Assembly: GCF_000760695.4 (NCBI RefSeq)
Contig: NZ_JHEG04000001.1
Coordinates: 4,174,895-4,238,894, forward strand
Direction: 5' to 3'
Origin: Tolypothrix bouteillei VB521301
GTDB taxonomy: Bacteria; Cyanobacteriota; Cyanobacteriia; Cyanobacteriales; Nostocaceae
DNA: 64,000 nucleotides
Each line of letters begins with the position of its first letter. The stretch's first letter is position 1. The notes under the pieces were generated by a model, which made no database searches, had not been told where the DNA came from, and was given only the letters and a program-made list of their open reading frames with translations. Of the stretch, positions 2,924 to 25,612 are shown piece after piece. The position numbers were made by a program, and so were the translations under genes.

Positions 2924-3076
2924 TATATTTTGTTTAAGAGGAAGAAAATCTTGGAGGCGGAACCAGTCATATTATGTCTGGTTAAAGACTTATGATTAGG
3001 GCACATGGGGGACTGGGGAACGGGTTTTGCACGGAACCTTTAATCATCACTAATCAACCGGGCTTAATAGGATTCA

Positions 3077-4921
3077 TTAAAAGGGATTAGCAATAATGGA
3101 AAAATATAAACCGTTTTCTTGCCAAGTGTCCTTATTTCCAGAAATTGAAATTAACGGAATACCCCACTCTATGCGTGCTGTCAGCCAGTTTTCTAATTGC
3201 AAGCGCAGCCCAAATCCAACAGAGGCGAGTGTATTTTCTTCTAGTTCGGCATCTGGGCTGGGTCTACCGGAACGGTTCCAAACAGTACCTACATCAAAGA
3301 AAGGCGTCACTTGTAAAACGCTACCACGCCGCGAAAACCGTACAATGGGAATGCGGACTTCAGCAGAAGCAAAGAAGCCATTATCTGTAAGCAGCGCATC
3401 TTGGCGGTAACCTCTAACACTTTCCAAGCCACCCAAGCCAAATTGCTCAAATGGAACTAGGGGTCGATCTGCAAATTGCAAATCTCCTCGTAAGAGAAAG
3501 AGAGTATCGGGTGCTAGCAGCCGCACCCACTGTGCTTGTCCTCTCCAAGCAAAGAAACTATTGGAATCGAAAGCATCAAGTCCCAAACTGAACTGAGAAC
3601 GCACGGCAAATACCTGTTGGCTGCTGCGTTGAGTCCATTCTTGGAAAAAACGTAAGGCGGTTACTCGAGTTTCGCCCTCTTCATTTGCACCAAACGCTGG
3701 AAAGGGGATTTCCCCTTGATTGTCCGGGTTTAAGGTAGCTTCACTTTCCCGGCGAGTTGCTGTTAAACCTACAGCAAGTTCGCGAGTTGGAGTTTGGATT
3801 ACGGGTTGTCGTAGGGTTAATTCGTAATAACGGGAATTGGATTGAATGTCAAGGATATTAAAAGGTTCTTCTATGACGTTGCTATCAGAAATACCAAAAT
3901 TGAACGAAATAGTTCCATTCCGAGCATTGATAGGAAAAGTATAACCAAAGTCAAAGGCATTACTGCCATCAGTATTGGTATAGATAGCGCTAATGCTATC
4001 ACCAAATCCCAAAAGATTGGCTTCGCTGACTTGAATTTGACGGCGAAAACTACCAACAGCCGGAGAGCGTCCGTTATCTAAAACTAACTGAACGTTAAAG
4101 GTGTCTGCTTCCTTCACCCGTACTTCTAACAAACTCACTCCCGGACGCGAACCTGCTGATAATTCTGCTGACAAATTATCAATGAGAGGATTGAGTTGTA
4201 ACAATTGTAGTGCTTGAAGCAAGCGATCGCGATTGAGGGGTTTTTTTGTAGCAATAGCAAGTCGGCTTCGCACGTAGCCCGGTCTCAATCTGCGGGTACC
4301 CGTTACTTTGATGTCTTCTAAGGAACCTTCTACGACCCGTATTTCTACGACCCCATCTTGAAGCTTTTGAGTGGGAATGTAAGCTCCTGATGTTATATAA
4401 CCTTTTTTAACATAAAGTTCAGTAATCGCCGCACGTGCTTGGAAGAGTTCTGCTAGGGTTATGGGTCTATTTATATAGTCTTTGAGAACTTCTGCAAATT
4501 CTTTTTGACTAAAGACTGTGCTACCTGTTACTTTAAATTCTTTAACACTAATGGTTTGGGGAACATCTCCTGGAGTGGTGTCGGGAGTTCTCGGTGTGGT
4601 TTCCGGTGGGAGTAACTGTTCAGGGGGCGGTAGGCGGAAAGGTGGTTCTGGTGCTGGTTCTGGAGGTGGGGGTTCTGGTATAGGTTGAGTGGAAGGGGGT
4701 TCGATGTCTCGTGGGTCGATTGGTTGTACATTAATGGGTCTTTGAGGTTCTCGTGGAAGGGGAACTTGGGCAGAAACACTGGGAGTGAGATTTTGGGTTT
4801 GTGCTGAATTAGCAACCTGCGCTTGTACAGATTTTATTAACAAAGTGCAAGAAATTGCCACTGAACTTAAGCAACAGCAATACTGATAGATGCTTAATCT
4901 TTGGCGGAAGTTACGGGGCAT
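3077..4921 (-). CDS. ShlB/FhaC/HecB-family TpsB outer-membrane transporter
   Basis: About 614 residues from the chosen ATG at 4921. The frame stays open upstream to 5023, but the 4921 start begins MPRNF, leads into a hydrophobic signal segment ending near SVQAQ, and overlaps the upstream tpsA stop by 11 bp, the usual sign of translational coupling. After a Pro/Glu-rich linker come POTRA-type domains (ISVKEFKVTGSTVFS, then a second unit with EIRVVEGSLEDIKVTG) and a C-terminal Omp85-type beta barrel with the conserved GGLESVRGY motif and a barrel strand ending in F. The family exports TpsA exoproteins across the outer membrane. The adjacent TpsA is the obvious substrate. Confidence 0.93.
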   Translation of the reverse strand: MPRNFRQRLSIYQYCCCLSSVAISCTLLIKSVQAQVANSAQTQNLTPSVSAQVPLPREPQRPINVQPIDPRDIEPPSTQPIPEPPPPEPAPEPPFRLPPPEQLLPPETTPRTPDTTPGDVPQTISVKEFKVTGSTVFSQKEFAEVLKDYINRPITLAELFQARAAITELYVKKGYITSGAYIPTQKLQDGVVEIRVVEGSLEDIKVTGTRRLRPGYVRSRLAIATKKPLNRDRLLQALQLLQLNPLIDNLSAELSAGSRPGVSLLEVRVKEADTFNVQLVLDNGRSPAVGSFRRQIQVSEANLLGFGDSISAIYTNTDGSNAFDFGYTFPINARNGTISFNFGISDSNVIEEPFNILDIQSNSRYYELTLRQPVIQTPTRELAVGLTATRRESEATLNPDNQGEIPFPAFGANEEGETRVTALRFFQEWTQRSSQQVFAVRSQFSLGLDAFDSNSFFAWRGQAQWVRLLAPDTLFLLRGDLQFADRPLVPFEQFGLGGLESVRGYRQDALLTDNGFFASAEVRIPIVRFSRRGSVLQVTPFFDVGTVWNRSGRPSPDAELEENTLASVGFGLRLQLENWLTARIEWGIPLISISGNKDTWQENGLYFSIIANPF

Positions 4922-7739
4922 GACACAATAGTGATAGGGGAACAGAAGATTCACGCGGTGGTGCTTGAGCAACAAGGATAACATTGCCGTTTTTATCGAC
5001 AATCCACCCCTGTGCTTCGACAATTTTATGGGAATCAGAGTTTTTAAGAAAGGAATTGTGACGATTGTTGCTTGTTTGTAAAGATTCCTTTGAACTTAAG
5101 GGATTTCCCATAGCTGGGTCGAGAGCGATCCAGTTTGCGATCGTTGCTTCTTGTGTCAGTGGTTCTGTGGGGCTCGGCGCTACCCCTCCGCGTCCGATGG
5201 TAGTAAAAGAACTGCGTGCTTGTCTGTTTCCTGGGGTGCAACCTGTAGCAACTTTTTGAGATGCATCAACTAAGTTAACAGGTAGGGGAACTAACTCAAG
5301 GGGTTCTGTATCGGGTGTGTTAACACTTGTGTCACCGTTGAAATTTGGGTTTGTTTGGGAAATGGCGGTGATATCGTTTGTTGAAAGCAAATTGGGGTTA
5401 ATTTCACTTGCGTTTTTGGGATTGAGTAGCTTAACCAAATCTTGGCGATTGCGCTGCACCATACCATACATACCCGCAGCGGTTATGTTGATTTTTCCCC
5501 CACTCCCGCTATAGGCATTGGCGGTGATGTCGCTATTTTCGCCAGGGACAGCTACAATAAAGCCATCTTTTGCATTGATATTAATATTGCCACCATCACC
5601 ACCTTGTTCAGCAGTACCCGCACTTGTAGAGATTTGACTGCCATTACGCAGGAGTAGCAATTTTTGCACTTGCAGAACGATATCGCCACCATCACCGGAT
5701 GCTGTTTCGGCGTTGAATTTACCTTGATTATCTAGAAAGATATTATTAGCTTGAATTTGGAGATTGCCCGCACCTTTAGCGTTGCTGGTAGGATTAAGAC
5801 TGCTGACTGCCACTTGCGCCCCATCCCGAACCGTCAAATTGCCAGTTTGAATACTCACATTCCCTCCCTTACCAGTGGCTTCAGGAAATCCGACAAAGCC
5901 CGATCCGGTTACGCCTCCGGAAGCAGCAAGTATACTCGTAGGAAACAGTCCTCCCTTTGCAGTGCCAGTAACTTCTATGGAATCGGAAGCAAGAATAATC
6001 AGATTTCCTGCGTCACCTCTGCCTAAGGTAGAAGTTTGCACAATAGCACCATCTCGCAGGCTTAAACGCTGGGTTTCAATGGTTAAGTTTGCTGCATTGC
6101 CAGTTGAGTTGCGATCGGCACTAGCGAATAAACCACTGGGAATGACAGGATTTGTGTCAGTTGCAATGACTTGACCATCTCGAGTGAGGGCAATACCAGC
6201 CAATTCCACAGTGGAAGCTTTTGCCAACAGGTTTCCTGCCGAGCCACTATTAAATGAAATAGTGCTAATTTGGGCACCATTAAGGACACGCAATTGACCT
6301 GTCTCAAGCTTTAACTGTCCAGCAGTTCCGCCCCCATCTGTTTGAGTAAGTAATCCACTGCTCCTACCGCTGTTTTTGTTAATTCTAGAGGTACCTATTG
6401 CAGTTATAGAATCTGAAGCATTTATTGTTAAGTTACCTCCTTGACCAGACCCAGCAGTGGAGGAAAAGATTTGTCCTCCCTGTTGAAGAAGCAATTGCTG
6501 AGTGTTTATTATTACGCTGCCAGCATGACCAAGTCCCTGAGTTGCAGCCGATATACTACTAACAGCATCACGACGAGTACTGACAAAGCCGCTCACTTCT
6601 ATGGTAGTGGCATTGACAGTTACGTTTCCACCTTGTCCCTGACCAAATGTGCTGGAAGATATCCGCGCGCCATCCCGAATAATTAACTGCTTGCTAGTAA
6701 GTGCCAAATTATTTCCAAATCCTCCAGAGTCTTCTGCAACCTCACTAAACAAGGCACTGGAAAAAGTACCGTCATCTGAAGTACCTATTAACTCTACAGC
6801 TTCTGTTGCAGTTACACTCAACATCCCTCCTTTGCCCTCGGCAAAAGCAACAGATACAATTTGCGACCCACCTTGAACCCTTAAGTTCTTAGACATGACT
6901 GCAACATCACCACCTTCATTACCACTCACATCTACTGTTGCCTCTTGAGCAAGACTGATATCTCCAAAGTTTTGTATTTTTTCATAACCCAAAGCAAAAC
7001 TTGTAGCTGTTGGAGTGAAGCTAACTAAGCCAGAACTGGCAACACTCCCTAATTCGATACGACCATCAGGTGCTGTTAAGTAACCTCCTGGCAACTCTAC
7101 CTCCCCACCCACAAGTGCTAATGTTTTCCCTGTCTGTACGACGAGACCAACAGGGACACCATTAGCATCCTCAGCCTGTGACTGATTGACAATAGAAGCT
7201 GGATTATTACCAAACTGTAAGCCAAAAGGCACGCTGACTGTTAGCAAAGGTAGAGCGTTTTCTGGGTTAACTGCACTGAACTCACTGCCATCTGTAAATT
7301 TGATGCTATTGGCTGTACTACTGACAAACGATCCACCAAGATTGAGCGACGCTTTGGGGCCAAAAATAATGCCATTGGGATTGAGAAGAAACAGGTTAGC
7401 AGAACTAGGATTACCATCCGTTTGTAAGACTTCAATTAAACCGTTGATGTTAGATACAGACGAGCCAGTTACACGAGAAATAATATTGGCAATCCCCGGA
7501 GCGTGACGAAAAGAAGCAGTGTTACCAGTAAGGATAGAAAACTGTTTAAAGCTGTGAAATAAATTGCTTCCTGCCTGTGTACCGCCCGTAATAATCTCGA
7601 CTGTACCATTTTGTGTAACAACAGAGGAATTGGGCAGAGTTACATCCTCAACAACTTGTGCTTGTGTTCGGGATGTTGCTGCTAAGTAGAAGATACACAG
7701 ACTGCTAGAAACGCAAAACACAAAACGAAAAAATATCAT
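4911..7739 (-). CDS. Filamentous haemagglutinin-type exoprotein (TpsA)
   Basis: 942 residues. A signal peptide (about 1-27) is followed by the TPS secretion domain: VVTQNGTVEIITGG, LFHSFKQFSI, NIISRVTG and NLFLLNPNGIIFG (about 30-190) are hallmark motifs of haemagglutination-activity N-terminal domains. The remainder (about 200-800) is Gly/Asn/Thr-rich imperfect beta-helix repeat, with recurrent GGN(V/L)(S/T)I and ITATG-type motifs. The C-terminal ~100 residues are less repetitive and hold two cysteines. Secretion through the TpsB gene that overlaps its 3' end is expected from family knowledge. Ligand or adhesion target cannot be read from sequence. Confidence 0.93.
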   Translation of the reverse strand: MIFFRFVFCVSSSLCIFYLAATSRTQAQVVEDVTLPNSSVVTQNGTVEIITGGTQAGSNLFHSFKQFSILTGNTASFRHAPGIANIISRVTGSSVSNINGLIEVLQTDGNPSSANLFLLNPNGIIFGPKASLNLGGSFVSSTANSIKFTDGSEFSAVNPENALPLLTVSVPFGLQFGNNPASIVNQSQAEDANGVPVGLVVQTGKTLALVGGEVELPGGYLTAPDGRIELGSVASSGLVSFTPTATSFALGYEKIQNFGDISLAQEATVDVSGNEGGDVAVMSKNLRVQGGSQIVSVAFAEGKGGMLSVTATEAVELIGTSDDGTFSSALFSEVAEDSGGFGNNLALTSKQLIIRDGARISSSTFGQGQGGNVTVNATTIEVSGFVSTRRDAVSSISAATQGLGHAGSVIINTQQLLLQQGGQIFSSTAGSGQGGNLTINASDSITAIGTSRINKNSGRSSGLLTQTDGGGTAGQLKLETGQLRVLNGAQISTISFNSGSAGNLLAKASTVELAGIALTRDGQVIATDTNPVIPSGLFASADRNSTGNAANLTIETQRLSLRDGAIVQTSTLGRGDAGNLIILASDSIEVTGTAKGGLFPTSILAASGGVTGSGFVGFPEATGKGGNVSIQTGNLTVRDGAQVAVSSLNPTSNAKGAGNLQIQANNIFLDNQGKFNAETASGDGGDIVLQVQKLLLLRNGSQISTSAGTAEQGGDGGNININAKDGFIVAVPGENSDITANAYSGSGGKINITAAGMYGMVQRNRQDLVKLLNPKNASEINPNLLSTNDITAISQTNPNFNGDTSVNTPDTEPLELVPLPVNLVDASQKVATGCTPGNRQARSSFTTIGRGGVAPSPTEPLTQEATIANWIALDPAMGNPLSSKESLQTSNNRHNSFLKNSDSHKIVEAQGWIVDKNGNVILVAQAPPRESSVPLSLLCHAP

Positions 7740-7927
7740 GGTTTTAGCTTGATACTTTGCCTTTGGGCAAGGGCGATGTCACGAATCTGTAGATTTACGG
7801 TGATGGTGAGCTAATGCATTTTTCAATTGCATAACATGGGCAGGGTACTCACCCCACAAGAGCTACATCTCAATGCAATATGCCAGTTCAATGAAGGGCA
7901 GCACAGTAGTCGATCGAGAGCCTGCTT

Positions 7928-9538
7928 TTAAAAGATAATGTCACTACTAGCAATGAAACTAGTCCCTGGTTTGAGAGAAGCAAACTGAATGGCCGCCACG
8001 CTATCAAAAGGAGAAGCATCAAAAGATAATGCTCCAGTGCTACTGTTGTAAATAAATTGATTAGTAGAGATAGCGCCGAAACCAGAGAAAATTTGTATTT
8101 TATCGCCCTCACTCCTATTGAAATCTTGAATGATATCAATACCTTCAAACTTGGAATTGAAGACGAACTTATCTGCACCAATTCCACCTGTTAGGGTGTT
8201 ATTTCCTGCTCCTCCAATTAACGTATCATTACCACTTCCACCGTTCAGGGTATCGTTTCCTTCTAACCCTGTTAAGATGTTATCGCCTCCATTACCAGTA
8301 ATAGTGTTATTCAGATTGTTGCCAGTACCATTGAGGTTGCTCTTGTCACTATCTGCAAAGCCATCAGCATATTGATTAAGATTTAGGTTATCTAGTCCCG
8401 ACCCCAGTGTCCAAGAAATCTTTGCTTTGACAGTCTCTATTCCAGTACCTGGTGAGTCAATAATTTTGTCGTTCAGGTCGTCAACAATGTAGATATCATT
8501 ACCTGTACCGCCCTCTAAGGTATCAGCACCCCATCCACCATCTAGTATGTCGTTACCGTCTCCTCCAACTAAAGTGTCATCACCACTACTGCCATCTAAT
8601 TTGTCGTCTCCTTCTGCCCCATTCAAGTAATTGTTTTTATCATTCCCCTCAATTTTGTTATTGAGATTGTTACCAATCCCCTTGATAGCAGAGCCAATAA
8701 GATTTAGATTATCCAGCCCTGAACTTAGTGTCCAGTCAACAGAAGCTTGAACTGTCTCTATTCCAGTACCTGGTGAATCAATAATTTTGTCGCCTGTATT
8801 ATCAACCACGTAAATATCATTACCTGTACCTCCCTGTAAGGTATCAGCGCCGAACCCGCCATCTAAATAATCATTTCCATCTCCACCAATTAGGTAATCG
8901 TTACCGGATTCGCCATATATTTTATCGTTGTCAGCTCCACCATCTAGAGTATCATTGCCATCACCGCCAAACAGCGCATCTTTGCCTTCCTGTCCTCGGA
9001 TTATATCGTTGCCCTGTTGACCAAGGACGATATCGTCCCCTTGACCCGCATCTACAGTATCGTCTCCAGCTCCAGCATAAACCGTGTCATCACTGGTGTC
9101 GTTATTATTTACACCTTTTAAATTAATTGTGTTATTCTGACTATCTCCTTGTGTCTTCCGGCTTGGCTTCTCATCATCTAGAATGACAACGTAAGCGGTC
9201 TGAATTGAAGATTTTGTTGTTAGTCCTATCCCAAAACCTTTGTCATTGGATAATTGTGCCGATCCATCAGCAGATAAAGGAATTCCATCCGCTTCTTTAA
9301 ATTCGTAGATTTCTTGGCTAAAACCAGAAGCAGGATTGGTTGGTTCATTAATTGTCAATAAAAAGATATTGTCCCCATCATTTTTTTGGTCGTTGTATAT
9401 CTTGATAGGAACATTCGCGTTACCACTGCTATCGAGCTCAATATTGTCGGAATCAAAAGGAATTTCAAAATCTGCGGGAGCACCTGGTCCTGGATTCCCT
9501 TCCTTACCCCATATTTCATCCCTGTTTATTCTTGGCAT
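7928..9538 (-). CDS. RTX-type calcium-binding repeat protein
   Basis: 536 residues. There is no classical signal peptide, consistent with type I secretion. Residues about 20-115 look like a partial Calx-beta-type region ending in a VVILDDE motif. Residues about 140-460 hold many GGxGxDxLx nonapeptides (GGDGNDTLDGG, GGTGNDIYVVD) of haemolysin-type Ca2+-binding beta rolls, with an internally duplicated block containing DSPGTGIETV. The C-terminus resembles the serralysin-type tail with DKFVF and IDIIQDFN. The ATG at 9538 has a good Shine-Dalgarno (aaggag, about 9 nt away). No enzymatic domain is seen, so it may be a structural or adhesive exoprotein. No ABC exporter gene lies in the window. Confidence 0.9.
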   Translation of the reverse strand: MPRINRDEIWGKEGNPGPGAPADFEIPFDSDNIELDSSGNANVPIKIYNDQKNDGDNIFLLTINEPTNPASGFSQEIYEFKEADGIPLSADGSAQLSNDKGFGIGLTTKSSIQTAYVVILDDEKPSRKTQGDSQNNTINLKGVNNNDTSDDTVYAGAGDDTVDAGQGDDIVLGQQGNDIIRGQEGKDALFGGDGNDTLDGGADNDKIYGESGNDYLIGGDGNDYLDGGFGADTLQGGTGNDIYVVDNTGDKIIDSPGTGIETVQASVDWTLSSGLDNLNLIGSAIKGIGNNLNNKIEGNDKNNYLNGAEGDDKLDGSSGDDTLVGGDGNDILDGGWGADTLEGGTGNDIYIVDDLNDKIIDSPGTGIETVKAKISWTLGSGLDNLNLNQYADGFADSDKSNLNGTGNNLNNTITGNGGDNILTGLEGNDTLNGGSGNDTLIGGAGNNTLTGGIGADKFVFNSKFEGIDIIQDFNRSEGDKIQIFSGFGAISTNQFIYNSSTGALSFDASPFDSVAAIQFASLKPGTSFIASSDIIF

Positions 9539-15139: not shown

Positions 15140-16441
15140 ATGTGTCCATCAGGTGCTACAAATCAAGAAAAAAAGCAAGACCTTTTCCTAGTATGCGGGC
15201 TCAAAGGTTTAGGGCAACATTGTGTCGCAGTCCTCAAAAAGTATGATGTTAAAGTCAGCGCCATTGACGATATAGAGCCCGAACATTGGGAAGTCTCAGA
15301 ACTATCCAGCTTGCTGGAAAACTTGATCGTAGGAGACTGTCGCCAGCCAAGTGTTTTAGAGCAGGCAGGTATACGTCAGTGCCGTTCTATACTTTTAGTA
15401 ACAAGAGATGAGCGGATGAATATAGAAGCTGCGTTTGCAGCACGGCGTATCAATCCGCAAGTTCGCCTGATTGTACGTTCTGACAAACAAAATTTTAACG
15501 AGCTCTTGTATGAAAATTTAGGAAATTTTGTTGCCTTTGAGCCTACCCATCTTTCGGCTCATGCCTTCGCTCTGACAGCCCTTGGATCTGAAGCTATTGG
15601 ATATTTTACGGTTGAAGGGCAACTGTTGCGAGTTATAGAACATCAAGTAAAACCACAGGATAGCTGGTGCAAGGGCAAACCAGTCTATAGACTTAATTTA
15701 ACAACTCGCTGTATCTTGAGTCACACACCCGTTTCATCTCACCCACCGAAACAATTTTATGACTGGAATCCAGAAGCAGAAGTACAGGTAGGAGACACAC
15801 TGGTTTATATTGATGTTGCAAGCGAACTGACTTTATTTGAGCAACATACAACAAGATCTCGCAACCTTTGGTGGCAGTGGCAACATTTTCTCCAAGGCAT
15901 CACGGCGAAGAATCTCAGGCAGAAAATCGTGCGATTTTGGCAATCTTACTACCAAAGTCAAAATCAAATCCGGCGAATTGCGACAATCTATGCAATTACC
16001 GTATTAGTCTTGTGGCTTGTTGGCATAATTCTTTACTGCTTGTATTATCCTCACATCACCCTCCAAGAAGCGTTTTATGCAACAGCCGTCTTACTTTTAG
16101 GAGGATACGGAGATTTATTTGGCAGTGTTAAGTTTGTATCTCAATTACAGGAATCAGATTCTATACCTTGGTGGTTGCGGTTGTTCAGTTTGGGATTGAC
16201 GCTAACAGGTCAAGCTTTCGTAGGAGTCCTGTATGCACTGCTGACTGATGCTCTTGTGACTTCAAGATTCCAGTTTTTTAATTCCGCTCCTCCCATCCCA
16301 CAACGCAACCATGTAGTGCTCATTGGCTTAAATTGTCTGGGACAGAGAGTGGCTGCTCTTTTGCAAGAACTCAACCAGCCGCTAGTGGGGATTCATCCCA
16401 TCGCCCACGACAAACATATTTTACCAAAAAACTGGGTTTAA
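15140..16441 (+). pseudogene. 5' part of an RCK-channel-RCK gene split by a TnpB element
   Basis: 433 residues: an N-terminal RCK/TrkA-N nucleotide-binding domain (about 10-130; LVCGLKGLGQHC fits a Rossmann GxGxxG-like loop), a TrkA-C-like region (about 145-230), two membrane helices (about 276-296 and 350-375) flanking a pore-loop motif GGYGD, and the start of a second RCK domain (NHVVLIGLNCLGQRVAALL). The frame ends about where the TnpB element starts, and the missing part of the second RCK domain continues in the same frame after the element from 17801. The intact gene would encode a ligand-gated potassium-type channel. A truncated channel lacking most of its second RCK domain might still be made. 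Confidence 0.85.
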
Positions 16442-17800
16442 AGCCCCGTCCTTCAAGGACGGCTTTACATTATTTTATCTAGCAATATAGCAGATAAAAT
16501 ATGTTATAATCAGGACATGATAGTAAGAGAAGCCAAGCTAAAAAACGGAACCAAAGAGCAATACTTAGCCCTTGATGAGGCTATCAGAACAACGCAGTTT
16601 ATTAGAAATAAAGCTGTACGGTTTTGGATGGACAATAAAGGAGTTAGTAAAGCTATTTTGTACAACTTATGCAAAGATTTGGCAGCAGAGTTTCCTTTCG
16701 CAAAGAAGTTAAACTCTGCTGCTAGACAAGCTAGTGCTGAACGGGCTTGGGCTGCTATCTCTACGTTTTATTCACGATGCAAAAAAGGTTCGGGGAAGAA
16801 AGGCTATCCAAAATTCAAAAAACATTGCCGCTCGGTAGAGTACAAAGTTTCGGGATGGAAGTTATCAAGTGATTGTAAATCAATCACCTTCACTGACGGC
16901 TTTGAGGCTGGAACTTTTTCTATATTTTGCAACAATGAAACTCAAGAAGACTTGCACAGATTAAAGATTAATCGGGTGCGAGTAATTAGAAAAGCAGACG
17001 GTTATTATGCTCAGTTTTGCTTTGATGCTGACCGCAAGGAAACAGGAAAATATACGGGTAACGTTGTTGGGTTAGATTTGGGGTTAAAGTTTTTCACCAA
17101 AGATCAACACGATAATGCCGTGATATATCCACAATTCTTGCGTTCGTCAGAAAAGCGATTAAAGAAAGCCCAACGCCGTCTGAGTAAGAAATTCGTCAAG
17201 GGTGCTAAACCCCAATCAAAAAACTATCACAGACAAAGGAAAAGACTGGGTAAAATCCATCTAAAAATTCAGAGGCAGCGTCAAGACTGGGCAATTAAGC
17301 AAGCTCGGTGCGTAGTCCACTCTAACGATGTGGTTGTCTATGAAGATTTAAAGATTGCCAATATGGTAAAAAATCATCAATTGGCTAAGTCCATTTCTGA
17401 TGCTGGTTGGTATCAATTCACTCAATGGCTAGACTATTATGGCAAGATTTGGGACAAAGCAGTTGTGGCGGTGTCACCTAACTACACATCACAAGATTGT
17501 TCTAATTGCGGTCATAGAGTGAAAAAATCTCTCAGTACCAGAACGCATTCCTGTCCTAAGTGCAAAATTGAACTATGCCGAGATACCAATGCGGCTCTGA
17601 ACATTTTGCAAAAAGGAATGAAGATACTCGGTACTGAGTGGCAACTAAACGGTACTTCTGGGCAAGAAGAATCCGCCTCTTGCGAGGGAAAGCATGGGGA
17701 GAAGACCGCCTCTACTATTGAAGGGAAACTCGATATAGCAAGTGGACTTCTGTGAACCATGAACTAGAATCACCGTGGCTTCAGCCCGGTGAGTATGTCA
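16432..17800 (+). mobile_element. Solo TnpB element (IS200/IS605-type, IS1341-like)
   Basis: The element lies inside the ion-channel gene. The left end has a hairpin (agccccgtccttcaaggacggct, about 16443-16465); the right end has caccgtggcttcagcccggtg followed by agtatgtca, typical of IS605-type right ends. It has no TnpA Y1 transposase, so it depended on one elsewhere to move. No target duplication is expected for this family. The exact left boundary is uncertain by several bases (about 16430-16442). Confidence 0.8.
16517..17755 (+). CDS. TnpB RNA-guided nuclease (OrfB transposase family)
   Basis: 412 residues, the normal length for TnpB. An N-terminal OrfB helix-turn-helix region (about 1-110) precedes a RuvC-like nuclease fold with all three acidic residues: D187 in GLDLG, E276 in VYEDLKI and D356 in CRDTNAA. 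A zinc ribbon sits between the last two (C328, C331, C346, C349). TnpB proteins cut DNA at sites matching a guide RNA made from the element's right end. A TATAAT box lies just before the ATG (around 16502-16510). The protein looks catalytically intact. Confidence 0.93.
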   Translation: MIVREAKLKNGTKEQYLALDEAIRTTQFIRNKAVRFWMDNKGVSKAILYNLCKDLAAEFPFAKKLNSAARQASAERAWAAISTFYSRCKKGSGKKGYPKFKKHCRSVEYKVSGWKLSSDCKSITFTDGFEAGTFSIFCNNETQEDLHRLKINRVRVIRKADGYYAQFCFDADRKETGKYTGNVVGLDLGLKFFTKDQHDNAVIYPQFLRSSEKRLKKAQRRLSKKFVKGAKPQSKNYHRQRKRLGKIHLKIQRQRQDWAIKQARCVVHSNDVVVYEDLKIANMVKNHQLAKSISDAGWYQFTQWLDYYGKIWDKAVVAVSPNYTSQDCSNCGHRVKKSLSTRTHSCPKCKIELCRDTNAALNILQKGMKILGTEWQLNGTSGQEESASCEGKHGEKTASTIEGKLDIASGLL

Positions 17801-17822
17801 ACTGATATGCCTCTGGTTGTTG
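17640..17822 (+). ncRNA. Probable omegaRNA/reRNA of the TnpB element
   Basis: By family rule the guide RNA overlaps the 3' end of tnpB, ends its scaffold at the element's right end (hairpin about 17771-17790) and carries about 16-20 nt of flanking DNA as guide. Here the guide would start at about 17800 with actgatatgcctctgg, part of the interrupted channel gene. Boundaries are inferred, not read from a promoter. Confidence 0.4.
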
Positions 17823-18568
17823 GTAATATTACCGAAGCACTGGCTAAGGTGAATCTCCCTCATGCCAAAAGCATCGTTTTAGTGGGGGACGATAATATGG
17901 AAAATCTGGAAATTGCTCTGGTGGCTCATGCAATGAACCCCACCAGTCGCTTGATTATCCGCACTCAAGATCGCCAATTTTGTGACAATATAGCTCCTCT
18001 ATTTCCCTATGCCCAAGTTCTGTGTGGTGCGGTGTTCTCTGCGGAAGTCTTTGCTTGTGCTGCTTTTGGAGAAAACGTTCTCAGTTTCTTTCACTTGAAT
18101 GCTCAAATAGTTATGGTGACAGAATACAACATCGAAGAAGGCGATACCCTCAATGGGTTGCTTCTTTCTGAAATAGCTCACGGCTACGGTGTTGTTCCAA
18201 TTCTCTACCAAAAGTATCGGCAAGAAAATTACTCGTTAATGCCTTGGGATGACGTGACGCTTTATGCAGGCGATCGCTTGATTGTTTTAGCGACAAGCAG
18301 TGGTTTGCAGCGAATTGAATGGGGTGAAATGCTTCCTCGCCTTTGGCAAGTGCAGGTTGAACAAGCTCTGACTCAAAATGCTATTGCTAGGGGTGCAGAG
18401 AAAATCAGTTTGATTGCGGGATGCAGTTCTACTCATGCTAGGCAATGGATCGATAATTTGCCCGGAGTGTTGCCAACACCACTTTATAAATATCAAGCTC
18501 AACGTCTTGTACGCGAGCTTAGAAAAGTGCAGGTTGTGGCAAGTGCAATCTTCAATGAGCAGCCATGA
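17801..18568 (+). pseudogene. 3' part of the split RCK-channel gene
   Basis: About 255 residues continuing the second RCK/TrkA-N domain (MPLVVGNITEALAKVNLPHA, SIVLVGDDNMENL, AHAMNPTSRLIIRTQD) and a C-terminal TrkA-C-like domain (about residues 105-170, with a VTLYAGDRLIVLA strand). It is in the same frame as the upstream part, so precise loss of the element (a multiple of three bases) would restore a gene of roughly 690 codons. Start codons inside the element end (ATG near 17789) could allow separate translation, but no clear ribosome site is seen. Confidence 0.82.
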
Positions 18569-18637: not shown

Positions 18638-18865
18638 AGAGCTAGCCTTGAGCAGAACACTTTAGACTGACAAAATCTGAAAATCTATTGCTAGTAAACT
18701 TTGCAGACGTTGGAACTGAGAGCTAGCTAAGTAAAGCAAATCCCCCTTCCCAAGTAAGCGAGCAGCATCCGTTTGTTTGCCACCCAAAATAATTGCTGAA
18801 TCCGCCTCACTTGCTGTTCGGAGTGCAACCCGTCCCGGTAAATTAGAACGGATAATGGGAGTAAC
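18638..18865. repeat. 228-bp direct repeat, copy 1
   Basis: Matches 22635-22862 without gaps and with few substitutions (constant offset 3997 bp). It covers the last 68 codons of the FtsK-like gene plus 24 bp beyond its stop. The two copies bound the island with the ParA and ParB-like genes. Confidence 0.95.
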
Positions 18866-19510
18866 TACTCCAGCTTCTGGGCGTTGAGTAGCAATAATCA
18901 GATGAATTCCAGCAGCCCGCGCCATTGCACCCAACCTTTTAATGCTTTGTTCTAATGCTGCACGAGATTCTTTTTCTGCCATAAAGTCAGCGTATTCATC
19001 GAAAATGCAGACGATACGAGGTAAAAACTGACGAGAACGTTGATTGTAAGTTTTTAGATTGGCACACCCAGCTTTTTCAAATCGCTGGTAACGCGATTCC
19101 ATTTCTGCCACCAATTCATTCATAAGTTCGATCGCACGTTCGCTATCTTTAACAATCGGTGAATGCAACCACCGCATCTCCTCAAACTCTGGGAAGGTGA
19201 CTCTTTTAGGATCGACAAGGGCAATCTGTAGGTATTCTGGGGAATGACGAACAATAAGACTGAGAAGGAGCGATCGCAAAAACTCACTCTTACCACTTCC
19301 TGTGGTACCACCAACTAAGAAATGACAGGTATTTGGATCGGACAAATCTGCTTCTACGAGTTGTCCATCTAAATTAACTCCGATCGCAATTTTCACAGGT
19401 GCTGAGAGCGTCGGTACAGTAGTCACAACAGGAGCAAAAAACACGTTTTCTCTCTGCTGTAAAAGTCTCTGCTGTAAAAGTTGATATTTCGTTAATGTAG
19501 AGACTAGCAT
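18662..19510 (-). CDS. FtsK/SpoIIIE-type ATPase, short form
   Basis: 282 residues. Walker A is VGGTTGSGKS (about 66-75), Walker B CIFDEYADF (about 168-176), and the FtsK-type IIATQRPEAGVVTPIIRSNLP segment (split here by description only) follows. The domain is a RecA-like DNA-translocase motor used to pump DNA in division or conjugation. There is no membrane region, no gamma domain and little sequence before the motor domain, so it is either a compact soluble form or a 5'-truncated copy. The ATG at 19510 has a weak upstream ggtgaag. It lies divergent from the nuclease-ParA/ParB-like pair, and its 3' end is duplicated at 22659-22862. Confidence 0.85.
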   Translation of the reverse strand: MLVSTLTKYQLLQQRLLQQRENVFFAPVVTTVPTLSAPVKIAIGVNLDGQLVEADLSDPNTCHFLVGGTTGSGKSEFLRSLLLSLIVRHSPEYLQIALVDPKRVTFPEFEEMRWLHSPIVKDSERAIELMNELVAEMESRYQRFEKAGCANLKTYNQRSRQFLPRIVCIFDEYADFMAEKESRAALEQSIKRLGAMARAAGIHLIIATQRPEAGVVTPIIRSNLPGRVALRTASEADSAIILGGKQTDAARLLGKGDLLYLASSQFQRLQSLLAIDFQILSV

Positions 19511-19766
19511 GGCTAGTCTTCACCAAAAAACTGACTACTATATGTTGGTGTAAGTATTTTTACTATCTTACCCCCTAGTTTTGACCATAATTTCAAGTTT
19601 TCAAGAATGGGATTTCTCTTGACGCTATGCGGTACTACTTTATTAAGTATAAAATTATACTTAATAATATTAGTGAAACTTGGGAGTTTAAAAAATATAC
19701 TTATGCCATAATGAAACAAGTATTAAAGTTTTGATAATTATTCTATTTTATACGAGGTAAAATAGA

Positions 19767-21146
19767 TTGGCTTTTAATCCTGAACTTTGCCGTAATGAAA
19801 GTGAAGTCGAAAGCAAACTTATAGTCCAGTACTTGCTACCACAGCTAGGATATACTCCTGATACCTGGCATCAAGAAGTTACTGTAGGCAGTATCCGGCT
19901 GGATTTTTTAGCATTTGCTGTACAAGTAATCCCCTTTGTACTAGATGCTAACTCTCCATTAAGTGTTGTGATGGAGGCAAAACACCCTCAGCAAAACCTG
20001 AATAATCATGTCCCTCGGCTCAAGCATTATTTAATAACGCTAAACGTTGCATATGGATTATTAACTAATGGTAAGGATGTGAGAATATATCAAAATCATC
20101 AAAATAATATTCAACTAGTATTTCAATGTACGGGTAAAGAAGTTGAAAAAAATCTAGATAAAATTTCCAATTTAATAGGCAGAGATAACTTGAAACTAAG
20201 ACAGACTCTAAATAGGGACGTAAAAATAACTGAATATAATTATATTTCTGAAACTAAGAGGCAAAAAATCATGAAAACTATTGCAGTTTATCATAACAAA
20301 GGTGGAGTAGGCAAAACAACTATTGCAGTCAATTTAGCAGCAACATTTAGAAAAAAAGGCAAAAAAGTTCTTCTAATAGATATAGATTCTCAAGCCAATT
20401 CTACTTTTGCTACAGGTTTAATTAAATTTCAGTTTGAAGAAGATGACGATTTAAGAGATAAAAACGTATACCATTTAATAGAATCAGGTGATTTTAACTT
20501 TATTCCCGATATTGTGCGTCAGTCTCAGTATTTTAATAATCCAGAATTAGATGTAATTCCATCTCATATAACATTAATTGAAGCTCAGGAAACACTTAAT
20601 AAAATACTTGCCAGTAGAAAAAGACTAATTGCTAAACTAAAACGGGTAGAGCAAAATTATGATATTGTAATCATTGATACACCACCCTCTAGAGATTTGT
20701 ATGCTGAAGTCGCCTTAATTACTGCTGATTATTTGATAATTCCTTCAGATCTAAAACCATTTGCTAATCAGGGGTTACCAACAGTAAAGAATTTTGTTAA
20801 TCAAATAAATGAAAATAGAGAAGTTATAGGAAAGCCACCTATTCAGATATTGGGAGTATTAGCCTCTAAAATATCAACTAATTCAAAATACTTACAATAT
20901 ACTTTTCCCAGACAACGGAGTGTAATTACAGAAAGATATCAACTACCTCTTATGGAAGCTGTCATATATGATAGAACAGTACTATCAGAATGTTTAAATC
21001 AAAGTATAACAGTTGGAGATTTAGAGTATCCCGACCCAAAATCTGTTATTAAATATGGAGAAGAAGTTAAAACAGAAGCTCAAAAATCTGCCATGGAATT
21101 TGAGGTTTTAGCGAAAGAAGTTCTCCAAAAAATGGGAGTTAAATAA
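19767..21146 (+). CDS. PD-(D/E)XK (HsdR_N-like) nuclease fused to ParA ATPase
   Basis: 459 residues from a TTG start with gaggt about 10 nt upstream. Residues 1-125 match the type I restriction HsdR N-terminal pattern: E15, D46 in IRLDF, E70 and K72 in VMEAKHP, then a LLTNG strand. Residues 169-459 are a ParA/Soj-type ATPase with deviant Walker A KGGVGKTT (178-185), a DIDSQAN motif and Walker B IVIIDTPPS. An in-frame ATG (20271) with agagg about 9 nt upstream exactly at the ParA boundary could yield a free ParA. The next gene overlaps by one base (taATG) and encodes a ParB-like protein, so they form an operon. Partition, anti-invader defence or element maintenance are possible; the function is not known. 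Confidence 0.85.
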   Translation: MAFNPELCRNESEVESKLIVQYLLPQLGYTPDTWHQEVTVGSIRLDFLAFAVQVIPFVLDANSPLSVVMEAKHPQQNLNNHVPRLKHYLITLNVAYGLLTNGKDVRIYQNHQNNIQLVFQCTGKEVEKNLDKISNLIGRDNLKLRQTLNRDVKITEYNYISETKRQKIMKTIAVYHNKGGVGKTTIAVNLAATFRKKGKKVLLIDIDSQANSTFATGLIKFQFEEDDDLRDKNVYHLIESGDFNFIPDIVRQSQYFNNPELDVIPSHITLIEAQETLNKILASRKRLIAKLKRVEQNYDIVIIDTPPSRDLYAEVALITADYLIIPSDLKPFANQGLPTVKNFVNQINENREVIGKPPIQILGVLASKISTNSKYLQYTFPRQRSVITERYQLPLMEAVIYDRTVLSECLNQSITVGDLEYPDPKSVIKYGEEVKTEAQKSAMEFEVLAKEVLQKMGVK

Positions 21147-21856
21147 TGATTAATTTTTCACTTGTAGATGTAAAAAGTATATCTTCTGATGTACCTAGAT
21201 CGAATTTCTCGGAGGCTAATTTAGATACTCTAGCAGACATTATTATCGAAAGCGGAGGATTGATTAGACCTTTAATTATTAAAGCAACGGGAGCAGAAAG
21301 TTATAGTGTAGTTGATGGACATCTTGAATATCACGCTGCTGTCAGAGCAAAAGAAAAAAATCCTCGTAAAGGGGAAATGGTGAATGCATTTGTAATTTCT
21401 CCAAAAATAGAGGATACAGTTGTCAAGCAAGCTGAAGTTCTCAGAGATGACGAATCATCTGGAAAAATAGTGAAACCACCTATAGAAGCAACAAACTTAG
21501 AACAACGTTTTTCAAATCTAGAATTACGGGTTGAAAAACAGATGAATGAGTTAAAGTCAGAACTAGCTAAAGAACGACAAAGCGTAGACGATAAGTTAAA
21601 AGAAATTCAAAATTTGATTCCTCTACGACTCGACCCGCTCAACTTATTAAACACTTTAAGTCAGGAAGAGTTATCTATGAAATTACAACGTTCTAGAATT
21701 CCCAGTGCTGAAAAACTTGCCAAAGCTATCTTTGATGCTCGAAATAGTAAAAAGGCAAAGCATGAATTTGAAGATTACCGTGATGTGGTAAAATCTGTTA
21801 AAGGATTGGGTGATAAAACAATCGTGACTATCATTGATGAGTGGTCAAGAAGTTAG
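21146..21856 (+). CDS. ParB-like protein with coiled coil and HhH-like C-terminus
   Basis: 236 residues. The N-terminal ~85 residues resemble the ParB/Srx fold (LIRPLIIKATG, SYSVVDGHLEYHAAVRA), the domain that binds CTP or acts as a nuclease in relatives. Residues about 115-160 form a likely coiled coil (LEQRFSNLELRVEKQ...), and the end (VKSVKGLGDKTIVTIIDEW) looks like a helix-hairpin-helix DNA-binding motif. The classical ParB helix-turn-helix is not evident. Its start overlaps the stop of the nuclease-ParA gene by one base, implying translational coupling and a physical partnership. Confidence 0.75.
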   Translation: MINFSLVDVKSISSDVPRSNFSEANLDTLADIIIESGGLIRPLIIKATGAESYSVVDGHLEYHAAVRAKEKNPRKGEMVNAFVISPKIEDTVVKQAEVLRDDESSGKIVKPPIEATNLEQRFSNLELRVEKQMNELKSELAKERQSVDDKLKEIQNLIPLRLDPLNLLNTLSQEELSMKLQRSRIPSAEKLAKAIFDARNSKKAKHEFEDYRDVVKSVKGLGDKTIVTIIDEWSRS

Positions 21857-22479: not shown

Positions 22480-22662
22480 ATGTATAAAAAAATATATACT
22501 AATAAAGAATCAGAACAGCAACAAAATGTAGAATCTGCGACTTCTTCAGTAAAATCAGATATTAAGAAGTCTGACGCTTGGAAAGCTTACCAGGCTTCTA
22601 AGAAGGAGCGTTTTGAGGTTTATCGTCGTCTTGTAGAGCTAGCCTTGAGCAGAACACTTTAG
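22480..22662 (+). pseudogene. Small gene with 3' end replaced by the direct repeat
   Basis: 60 codons starting MYKKIYTNKESEQQQ. The first ~51 residues are hydrophilic with a KSDAWKAYQASKKERFEVYRR helix, resembling short cyanobacterial regulatory or antitoxin-like proteins, but no family is certain. The last codons (VELALSRTL) lie inside the 228-bp repeat, so the original C-terminus was probably cut off by the duplication. Confidence 0.5.
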
Positions 22663-22862
22663 ATTGACAAAATCTGAAAATCTATTGCTAGTAAACTTTG
22701 CAGACGTTGGAACTGAGAGCTAGCTAAGTAAAGCAAATCCCCTTTCCCAAGTAAGCGAGCAGCATCCGTTTGTTTGCCGCCCAAAATAATTGCTGAATCC
22801 GCCTCACTCGCGCTTCGGAGTGCAACTCGTTCCGGTAAATTAGAACGGATAATGGGAGTAAC
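22635..22862. repeat. 228-bp direct repeat, copy 2 (FtsK-like gene tail)
   Basis: A copy of 18638-18865. On the minus strand 22659-22862 still encodes 68 in-frame codons of the FtsK-like C-terminus (SAIILGGKQTDAARLLGKGD) with a few substitutions and a stop. There is no start or motor domain, so it is a non-functional gene fragment. It ends six bases before the Rpn-type gene's stop. Confidence 0.93.
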
Positions 22863-22868
22863 ATTATC

Positions 22869-23843
22869 TTATTGCAAAGTGCTTTGTCCAAAGCGCGTTA
22901 CCAATTCCTCACGGGAAGAGGTGAGCAAAAGGTTGGCGACTTCATCATCCGGCAATTGTGTCAGTGGCTCAACGATTAATGAAAGCTCCTCGTTAAGAAC
23001 ACCAAACCGACTCTTGAGCAAGCTTTGAATTAAATTCTTTGCCTTTTCGTGTTGTCCTTCTTGTCGTCCTTCTTGTCGTCCTTCTTGTCGTCCAATGCGC
23101 TCGATGCTGCTAATGTAGGGCATTTGATTTTCCTCCTCGAATTGTCTCAGTTCGTCCCGAAAGGTAACTTCCAATGGTTCCGGCAGGCGCATCATGCTAT
23201 CCAGTACCAGGAATATATTGATAATATCTTGTCGGCTATACCCGCGTCTGTAAAGACCTTTGATCAAGCGTAGTTTCCATTGCAACCGCTCTGGGGCGGC
23301 TTGGATCGTAGCTTGGGTTTTGCGATGCGCCATCACTACCACAGCGAACGGGTTACTGCTCGCCTCCAGCGTTTCCCAGGTATAGTCTAACAATTTAATG
23401 ATGGGAAACCGCAGTTGCATAGAGCAGCCCCAGCGCCCGTAACCATATTCCTGGGGTCGCCAGTTGGGTTGTTCGTCGCCCAGCACGGCTAAACTTACCA
23501 CTTCTCGACCATAGCGGTCAAAAATTTTATAGTTATAGGTAAAGATTCGTTTTGCAAAACCGCTGTCCGTTTGACTTTGTATTTCGATATGCAGGAGAAG
23601 CCACGCTTCAGAGCCGTCTCTGAGCCAGACCTTAAGAAGCTTATCAACGAAGCGCGTGCCAATTTCAGCATCCCGAACAATCTGGGTAAACTCTTTGTCG
23701 AGGAATTCGTATCCCCGCTCCCATGCGATTTCCCGATGTGCTTCTGGGAAGAAGAAGGCAACAAATGCCTCAAAATACTGTTCAATCGCTACTTTCCACG
23801 ATTCGTCGTAATTTGCAGGAATGTTGGTTTCTGGTTCCGTCAT
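22869..23843 (-). CDS. Rpn-family/PD-(D/E)XK nuclease-transposase protein
   Basis: 324 residues. The N-terminal two thirds match the large cyanobacterial family annotated as Rpn or PD-(D/E)XK nuclease family transposases: FFFPEAHREIAWERGYEFLDKE (described, not full), an LLHIEIQSQ strand with the E-x-Q form of the catalytic motif, and YNYKIFDRYGREVVSLAVL. A GRQEGRQEGRQEGQ repeat (about 253-266) precedes a C-terminal DUF4351-like helical region. RpnA-type proteins stimulate recombination in bacteria. It ends next to the 228-bp repeat. The start is the ATG at 23843, with no strong ribosome site. Confidence 0.85.
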   Translation of the reverse strand: MTEPETNIPANYDESWKVAIEQYFEAFVAFFFPEAHREIAWERGYEFLDKEFTQIVRDAEIGTRFVDKLLKVWLRDGSEAWLLLHIEIQSQTDSGFAKRIFTYNYKIFDRYGREVVSLAVLGDEQPNWRPQEYGYGRWGCSMQLRFPIIKLLDYTWETLEASSNPFAVVVMAHRKTQATIQAAPERLQWKLRLIKGLYRRGYSRQDIINIFLVLDSMMRLPEPLEVTFRDELRQFEEENQMPYISSIERIGRQEGRQEGRQEGQHEKAKNLIQSLLKSRFGVLNEELSLIVEPLTQLPDDEVANLLLTSSREELVTRFGQSTLQ

Positions 23844-24432: not shown

Positions 24433-24984
24433 TTAGGTATCTATTATTTGGTTATCCAAAGTAAAATCGTGAGGATTCTTGAGAGTAAAGGTATTATTTT
24501 CTTTAATTAAATCACCCCTGCAAAGAATAGGTAATCGATCTTGATAGGCTTTAAGAGCCAAAATATAACTATGGTCGTTTAATTTCGTTTTTATTTTTCT
24601 TAGTTTATTAATTACAACACCAAGAAGTATAATTTCACCGCTTAATTTGTCTACTAATGGCTGTTCAATTTGCATGATAATTCCCTGAATAAGGGTATTT
24701 GGCACAGTGGTGATAAGTTCATTAATAATCTCTAGCTGAGAGCGATTTTCTACTAACGCTAAAGTTTCTGTTGCTTCGCTAATTCTAGTTGCGTAGTCTC
24801 CCAAATTTTTTCTACTGGGTAGCAATATTTCAAATTCACCTCGTTCTAGTTCTTGTTTCAGCCAAATCGTGGCATTATTCATAAACGACCCATCTTCATG
24901 CCATCCATGCGTTTGTAGATAATTTCTGAGTTCTTCGGGTTCTATATTTTGAAAAATTTCAATATCCCGCACAGTAACTTTCAT
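24433..24984 (-). CDS. Conserved-looking hypothetical protein
   Basis: 183 residues, soluble, mixed helix and strand (MKVTVRDIEIFQNIEPEEL...). A strong Shine-Dalgarno (aaggag, about 8 nt before the ATG) and cyanobacterial codon use support a real gene. No catalytic motif, membrane segment or cysteine cluster is apparent. The middle part (IINELITTVPNTLIQGIIM) is hydrophobic but not a clear membrane helix. It stands alone between repeat debris. The product is not recognised. Confidence 0.7.
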   Translation of the reverse strand: MKVTVRDIEIFQNIEPEELRNYLQTHGWHEDGSFMNNATIWLKQELERGEFEILLPSRKNLGDYATRISEATETLALVENRSQLEIINELITTVPNTLIQGIIMQIEQPLVDKLSGEIILLGVVINKLRKIKTKLNDHSYILALKAYQDRLPILCRGDLIKENNTFTLKNPHDFTLDNQIIDT

Positions 24985-25290: not shown

Positions 25291-25410
25291 ATGACTGTTG
25301 ATTCCGGTTCAACTCTGCAAGATATTTTTAAAGCGATCGCATTTGACAGTAGCGAATCCTATGTACAACAAAAGGTGGTAGTACCTCTTTTGCATAGCCT
25401 CCTTTTTTAA
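25291..25410 (+). other. Short ORF, possible 5' gene remnant
   Basis: 39 codons starting MTVDSGSTLQDIFKAIAFD and ending VVPLLHSLLF. The start of a protein is plausible (agtgctagt precedes it but no Shine-Dalgarno), yet it stops early in a T-rich run. The rest of 24985-25856 contains no other gene apart from the hairpin repeat at 25613. Confidence 0.25.
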
Positions 25411-25612
25411 GAGGGTTGGGAGATCTGCAACGCGTGAAAAACCCAAAATACTCTTGAGATTGCGTAAGAATCTTGTAGACTCAACTTAAAGAAACCTGGT
25501 TGTTGGGATTACTTTATCGGCGTTATAGGTTGGGAACCCCGCCTGCTTTATTTGAACTCACTACTACACAAACGAAGTCCGCAAGACAAGGAGTAACGAA
25601 AAATCAAGGTTC

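Follow-up and report, generated by a model that had tools for sequence, protein, structure and literature searches.

ParA and ParB proteins are known for moving chromosomes and plasmids, and ParA systems of the McdA/McdB type position cargo. Among HsdR_N and type IIG restriction enzymes, the closest known nuclease domains to the one described here are those of HsdR (3h1t), DrdV and BpuSI. The predicted counter-invader capture systems of PMC10853773 contain HerA/FtsK, an Orc/CDC6 ATPase, nucleases and wHTH proteins, and a 3'-5' exonuclease is fused to HerA/FtsK in some of them; PMC12839542 extends this account. PMC12704722 reports that only a ParB-DUF3850 fusion is consistently encoded with a neighbouring parA.

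We analysed a stretch of 64,000 nucleotides from Tolypothrix bouteillei VB521301 (hereafter the window), in which an initial annotation had noticed a nuclease-ParA fusion followed by a ParB-like gene. The observation is confirmed, and our computations show a conserved gene pair made up of an HsdR/type IIG-like nuclease whose catalytic residues are conserved, an intact ParA and a ParB-fold adaptor that co-evolves with it. Where the HsdR_N and type IIG enzymes have a helicase motor or a methylase, the nuclease here is joined to a ParA ATPase, and the pair comes without a specificity subunit or methylase. A search of titles and the beginnings of abstracts returned no description of this architecture.

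A nuclease-ParA fusion and its ParB-like partner

The fusion gene (19767..21146, + strand) encodes 459 aa from a TTG start and is supported by Pfam and homologues. Fold and conservation assign its residues 1-142 (19767..20192, +) to a PD-(D/E)XK nuclease domain of the HsdR/type IIG type, which carries E11, E15, D46, E70-x-K72 and Y88. The proposed HsdR_N-like domain is borne out by structure comparison, which matched the N-terminal part to PD-(D/E)XK enzymes with a restriction-endonuclease fold. By profile, Pfam HSDR_N_2 scores 24.4 bits on the window fusion against a curated cut-off of 25.0, and HSDR_N scores 26.9 bits on one relative (L078) against a cut-off of 25.1. A PDB search with the N-domain profile returned one repeat protein (E 1.9e-7), which we took as designed, and ubiquitin hydrolases, which we took as chance matches. 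The fusion alignment contains 220 rows, equal to 200 distinct proteins: 163 rows come from protein searches, 56 from loci whose frame exceeds 400 aa, and one is the window. E11 and Y88 are invariant in all 200, as are E70 and K72, whose conservation the initial annotation had proposed to check; D46 is kept in 198 and replaced by G in two Laspinema proteins.

Residues 168-459 (20268..21143, +; Pfam and alignment) form the ParA ATPase domain, which matches Pfam AAA_31 with 182 bits. The KGGxGKT motif is present and K178, K183, D205 and D304 are invariant in 200/200 distinct proteins, in line with the complete ATPase that had been claimed; we take K178 and K183 to be the signature and Walker A lysines, and a conserved Asp to be Walker B. 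PADLOC has no model for the gene pair. Its only good match, PDC-M28B, aligns to the ParA region alone (E 1.1e-9, positions 99-226 of 438), and an ordinary 294-aa ParA also matches it (E 1.6e-7); we thus rejected membership of PDC-M28B. In two relatives the fusion is split into two frames early in the ParA domain, with the break at the P-loop in L074 (G021) and somewhat 3' of it in L106 (G064); the cause may be a sequencing slip, decay or something else.

The partner gene (21146..21856, +; 236 aa) has the anatomy first proposed for it, as far as modelling can tell: a predicted ParB/Srx fold in residues 1-104 (21146..21457, +), a long helix, likely a coiled coil, in residues 118-157 (21497..21616, +), and a tail that models as helix-hairpin-helix (HhH)-like in residues 160-236 (21623..21853, +). 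At the place of the GxxR motif the window protein has G58-H-L-E61. Across the partner alignment (181 rows, 176 distinct), G58 is invariant and the R of GxxR occurs in 0/176 distinct proteins. Because this arginine is never present, and its change to A served as the negative control for nucleotide binding in PMC12704722, we predict that the partner forms no CTP clamp; the missing motif suggests a fixed adaptor instead of a sliding CTP clamp. A Pfam scan up to E 1 gave no HTH family match in the partner. Residues 1333-1404 of a 1717-residue tail protein (PDB 9k3a, chain B) resemble the ParB-like family (E 1.5e-6).

Tail kinds differ among relatives: HhH-like in the window, they are Rho_N/SAP-like or HeH-like elsewhere, with Rho_N above cut-off in L075 (E 1.2e-9), L099 and L077, and HeH just below cut-off in L110 (E 2.9e-6). 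Among 41 type-A loci compared in 820 pairs, with one locus entered twice as L050 and L056, the nuclease is the best conserved part, with a median identity of 72%, followed by ParA (58%), the partner N-domain (46%) and the tail (31%). Distances of ParA and the partner N-domain correlate strongly (rho 0.86, 820 pairs), those of the nuclease with either less so (rho 0.38-0.52), so that the partner co-evolves with ParA. A restriction-like system would be expected to show just this combination of a constant cutter with a recognition tail that changes and is swapped. The conservation also bears on another reading, in which the nuclease domain would be a non-catalytic arm that binds DNA, and the task of the pair would be to position DNA or protein cargo in the manner of McdA/McdB. 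A ParA with a GxxR-less ParB-fold adaptor does resemble cargo-positioning pairs, and nuclease-less relatives exist (see below), but with E70 and K72 invariant in the 200 distinct proteins and the nuclease the slowest part to change, we regard this reading as very improbable.

With ParABS the pair shares an intact ParA and an adjacent, co-evolving ParB-fold gene. Unlike in ParABS, the partner lacks GxxR and a match to the ParB HTH and carries an HhH-, Rho_N- or HeH-like tail, the nuclease is fused to ParA, and no conserved parS-like repeat was seen between 19400 and 22900 of the window. The label 'partition-linked', in its ParABS sense, is therefore not upheld. No conserved repeat was seen in 12 aligned upstream regions either; a 13-bp perfect inverted repeat at 19640-19667, a candidate operator or parS, is not conserved in the other 11 and was set aside.

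Distribution of the gene pair

Whole-genome searches covered one phylum. Far from being unique to this genome, as the initial annotation had allowed, the fusion occurs in many cyanobacterial genomes. It is found in 27 of 60 relatives (own genome included), 24 of type A and three of type B, a count that includes the disrupted fusions of G021 and G045. All 43 proteins found by the type-B N-domain alone also have ParA families, and their named organisms are cyanobacteria. The partner adjoins the fusion in 27/27 loci retrieved via the fusion (window included). Fusion and partner are the sole genes common to all loci compared, so an integrase is not part of the unit.

Class-wide, the N-domain is found at E<=1e-14 in 111 of 388 genomes (29%), with a frame of 400 aa or more in 98 of them. 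Among the matches listed, at least 97 of the 111 are followed on the same strand, no more than 2.6 kb downstream, by a ParB-like match. Some of the 14 misses are short frames, and on direct inspection three of these genomes (G173, G203, G222) do have the partner; in G082, a direct look at the locus found no partner downstream of the N-domain match. Phylum-wide, 66 of 386 genomes give a match at E<=1e-10, two of them weakly (G031, G399) and one from outside the class (G436).

The pair is chromosomal. Among the best 5000 plasmid records, none has one place covering 80% of the fusion, and the partner has no match in the plasmid collection; plasmid matches of the nuclease domain are limited to HsdR-N, methylase, restriction or DUF5655 proteins and one unnamed place. 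We accordingly rejected plasmid maintenance as a function, and the suggestion that the nuclease protects its own plasmid becomes unlikely. A phage origin is not supported: no related locus was found in 195 viral stretches matched by N-domain (A3) patterns, and of two weak phage matches one is a type IIG restriction-modification enzyme and the other a hypothetical protein.

Exchange with a predicted capture module

At many loci the pair is flanked on one side by a divergent ParA gene of 294 aa, which lies near an ileS-like gene, and on the other by glycosyltransferase-like genes (ileS and glycosyltransferase names were read by eye). In genomes without the pair, the same site often holds three genes, c9, c5 and c6. 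The c9 protein combines a 3'-5' exonuclease, a weak Cas4-like part, FtsK-alpha and FtsK; c5 is an AAA ATPase that reaches Pfam AAA_16 just below cut-off. PADLOC matches neither c5 nor c6, and c6 has no Pfam match. Because of c9 and the AAA ATPase, c9-c5-c6 fits the description of a capture module in PMC10853773, and we label it a predicted capture module by this analogy. Like the capture systems described there, the pair brings together a DNA-moving P-loop ATPase, nucleases and variable DNA-binding parts, and in many relatives the capture module occupies the pair's chromosomal site. Unlike them, it has ParA in place of HerA/FtsK, consists of two genes and seldom co-occurs with the module (3/60, 0/388).

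Hand-counted site classes in 38 genomes retrieved with the 294-aa ParA were: pair only, 12; pair followed by c9-c5-c6, two; pair inside c9, one; c9-c5-c6, 13; decayed c9, two; neither, eight. Across the 60 relatives, with presence calls set by us from the search results, three genomes have both, 24 the pair only, 26 an intact c9 only and seven neither (Fisher's exact test, p = 1.2e-7). Here G002 (half-length c9) and G015 (pieces) are placed under neither, and neither the window's own c9 stump nor the half c9 of G030 counts as intact; counting G002 as c9 gives p = 5.6e-8. The same pattern holds within the window's own family (both, pair only, c9 only, neither: 2/15/17/2, p = 4.7e-6) and across 24 other families with one genome each (1/9/9/5, p = 0.013). 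In the class set of 388 genomes, which partly overlaps the 60 relatives, 111 have the pair, 26 have c9 and none has both (p = 1.7e-4), leaving 251 with neither at the thresholds used; c9 was called here by its N-terminal 342 residues at E<=1e-70, with the split copy of the window's own genome left out and one 288-aa fragment kept. On a tree of the neighbouring ParA (38 rows, G002 as c9), the pair changes 12 times and c9 13 times. Over nine independent pairs on supported branches, c9 is opposite in 7.9 on average, the same in 0.0 and without difference in 1.1 (median p = 0.008). The traits are scarcely more clustered on this tree than shuffled labels are (for 'pair only', 12 changes against a shuffled mean of 13.0), which would mean fast turnover or a one-gene tree that follows the species poorly. 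These computations show that the pair replaces, and is replaced by, the predicted capture module; the exclusion may partly reflect a common insertion site.

The main rival explanation starts from this exchange. The pair and c9-c5-c6 would be interchangeable for genome maintenance in polyploid cyanobacteria, that is, for copy resolution, break processing or DNA positioning, with the nuclease trimming DNA at ParA-organised sites. Exchange without losing both suggests a shared, needed job: 50 of the 60 relatives have exactly one of the two, both often lie beside the conserved 294-aa ParA near ileS, and the pair is chromosomal; the 29% share of class genomes, together with near complete one-or-other occupancy in the relatives, also fits. 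We nevertheless consider housekeeping unlikely, as seven of the 60 relatives have neither intact, as do the 251 class genomes above, the pair is often gained and lost (12 changes over 38 tips), the tail evolves fast and relatives lie inside BREX operons.

Remnants of the exchange lie in the window. A stump of c9 (18662..19510, -), containing the C-terminal FtsK part only (residues 612-857, 81% identity), flanks the fusion on its 5' side, and a second C-terminal fragment (residues 794-857; 22671..22862, -) lies 3' of the partner; the window unit has no intact HerA/FtsK translocase gene. A 228-bp direct repeat (18638..18865 and 22635..22862, 96.5% identity) brackets the pair, and 25291..25422 (+) holds the decayed N-terminus of a second, type-B nuclease-ParA gene with an in-frame stop. 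Elsewhere, one locus (L056) has the order c9 remnant, pair, intact c9-c5-c6, and in L078 the pair sits between two parts of c9. We infer that the pair has repeatedly inserted at the capture module and displaced it. The same remnants, with the repeat bracketing the window pair, c9 split in L078 and left on the pair's other side in L056, would suit a mobile module, either selfish or domesticated: a partition cassette that came from a plasmid or integrative element and now persists in chromosomes, turning its nuclease on rivals; position and subtype do differ between genera. The plasmid and viral searches above and the lack of an integrase in the unit speak against such a module, and we judge it improbable.

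Other features of the window are recorded as observed. A putative nuclease-transposase gene of the Rpn/YhgA-like kind (22869-23843; TIGR01784, E 1.2e-6, below cut-off) adjoins the right c9 fragment. By eye, the frames at 15140-16441 and 17789-18568 look like halves of one TrkA/ion-channel gene, with an IS200/IS605-type tnpB-like frame (16517-17755) between them. Two stretches of a 183-aa protein (24433-24984) match the PADLOC candidate PDC-M02B (E 4.3e-42); the protein has about half the length of this candidate, as if shortened internally.

Nuclease-less relatives and their neighbours

The same ParA clade includes members with the same partner and no nuclease. In 23 class genomes a partner match was listed with no strong N-domain; we examined 17 of these loci (G116, G160, G233, G258, G277 and G281 were left out) and three extra stretches from outside the list (G082, G370 and the placeholder G060). 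A nuclease-less pair is present in 12 loci, 11 from the list and G082; a further one in G022, near a c6 gene, is outside this count. In the remainder, ParA is in pieces (L140), only a tail fragment is left (L156), or the partner lies beside a 277-aa gene not of this ParA (L141-L143; in L142 an enoyl-CoA hydratase). Two ParB-like genes without this ParA adjoin the capture module, one beside c9 (L143) and one beside c9-c5-c6, next to c6 (L144). On the ParA tree, nuclease-less forms are interspersed with fused ones, and the supported branches require at least four changes.

Six of the 12 nuclease-less loci lie with defence genes, a count made without a random-locus control. L147 and L151 have the order PglZ-BrxL-ParA-ParB-DndA-like, so that the nuclease-less sister pair lies between BrxL and the DndA-like gene; PglZ is fused to a kinase in L151, and the DndA-like gene could be an ordinary cysteine desulfurase. 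PglZ and BrxL were found only in these two relatives, and the five window proteins scanned include no PglZ, BrxC/BrxL or other BREX core gene. The other loci hold a DrmMI/IIG-type methylase, GmrSD and UvrD (L146), UvrD, a DruE-like helicase and a methylase at a distance of four small frames (L145), UvrD, GmrSD, kinase and OLD-like genes (L148), or a methylase and UvrD (L158). PADLOC matched none of the one to three neighbours scanned per locus in L149, L150 and L152-L155; some of these neighbours are ordinary, which we count against a defence reading. The genome neighbours of the pair suggest a so far unrecognised defence against invading DNA.

Possible function of the pair

We consider the pair most likely (probability about 0.63) to be a compact anti-invader, restriction-like system, in which an ATP-gated nuclease would be delivered by the ParB-fold adaptor. 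Of the functions initially guessed, defence has gained real support, from the reciprocal replacement with a predicted capture module and from nuclease-less relatives in BREX and restriction-like operons. The absence of a methylase among the window neighbours scanned counts against the restriction-like reading. Anti-plasmid and anti-phage action fit the sequence alike and cannot be told apart.

In such a system, the ParB-like protein would use its variable DNA-binding tail to mark DNA or a nucleoprotein complex of foreign origin, and would recruit ATP-bound ParA to the marked site. The ParA nucleotide-sandwich dimer would then join two nuclease domains on the foreign DNA, and the dimer would cut. 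Release and re-delivery of the complex would come from ATP turnover, which the partner may stimulate as it does in ParABS. Inside a larger restriction operon the operon might supply the effector, and the fused nuclease would be lost. More tentatively, at slightly worse than even odds, the ParA and its CTP-independent ParB-fold adaptor could be a portable 'find and deliver' unit for immunity driven by a partition ATPase, plugged into its own fused nuclease, BREX, or methylase/GmrSD/UvrD operons; this would be the ParA counterpart of HerA/FtsK capture, perhaps intercepting invading DNA during its partitioning.

If the pair restricts invaders, ParA/ParB machinery would have become a weapon, and a very common unnamed cyanobacterial gene pair would be explained. 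The repeated exchange with the HerA/FtsK module also provides matched sister genera for direct functional comparison, and the nuclease-less forms embedded in BREX operons suggest an unrecognised BREX accessory part.

Two minor observations concern individual relatives. At L149 (G308), a 1118-aa Tubulin_2 protein (2944-6300) is encoded near the nuclease-less ParA/ParB-like pair. At L159 (G370, 7774-9345), a ParA of the same clade carries, in place of a nuclease, a fused helicase domain (AAA_12, Mokosh MkoA-like), and a ParB-like gene follows this fusion.
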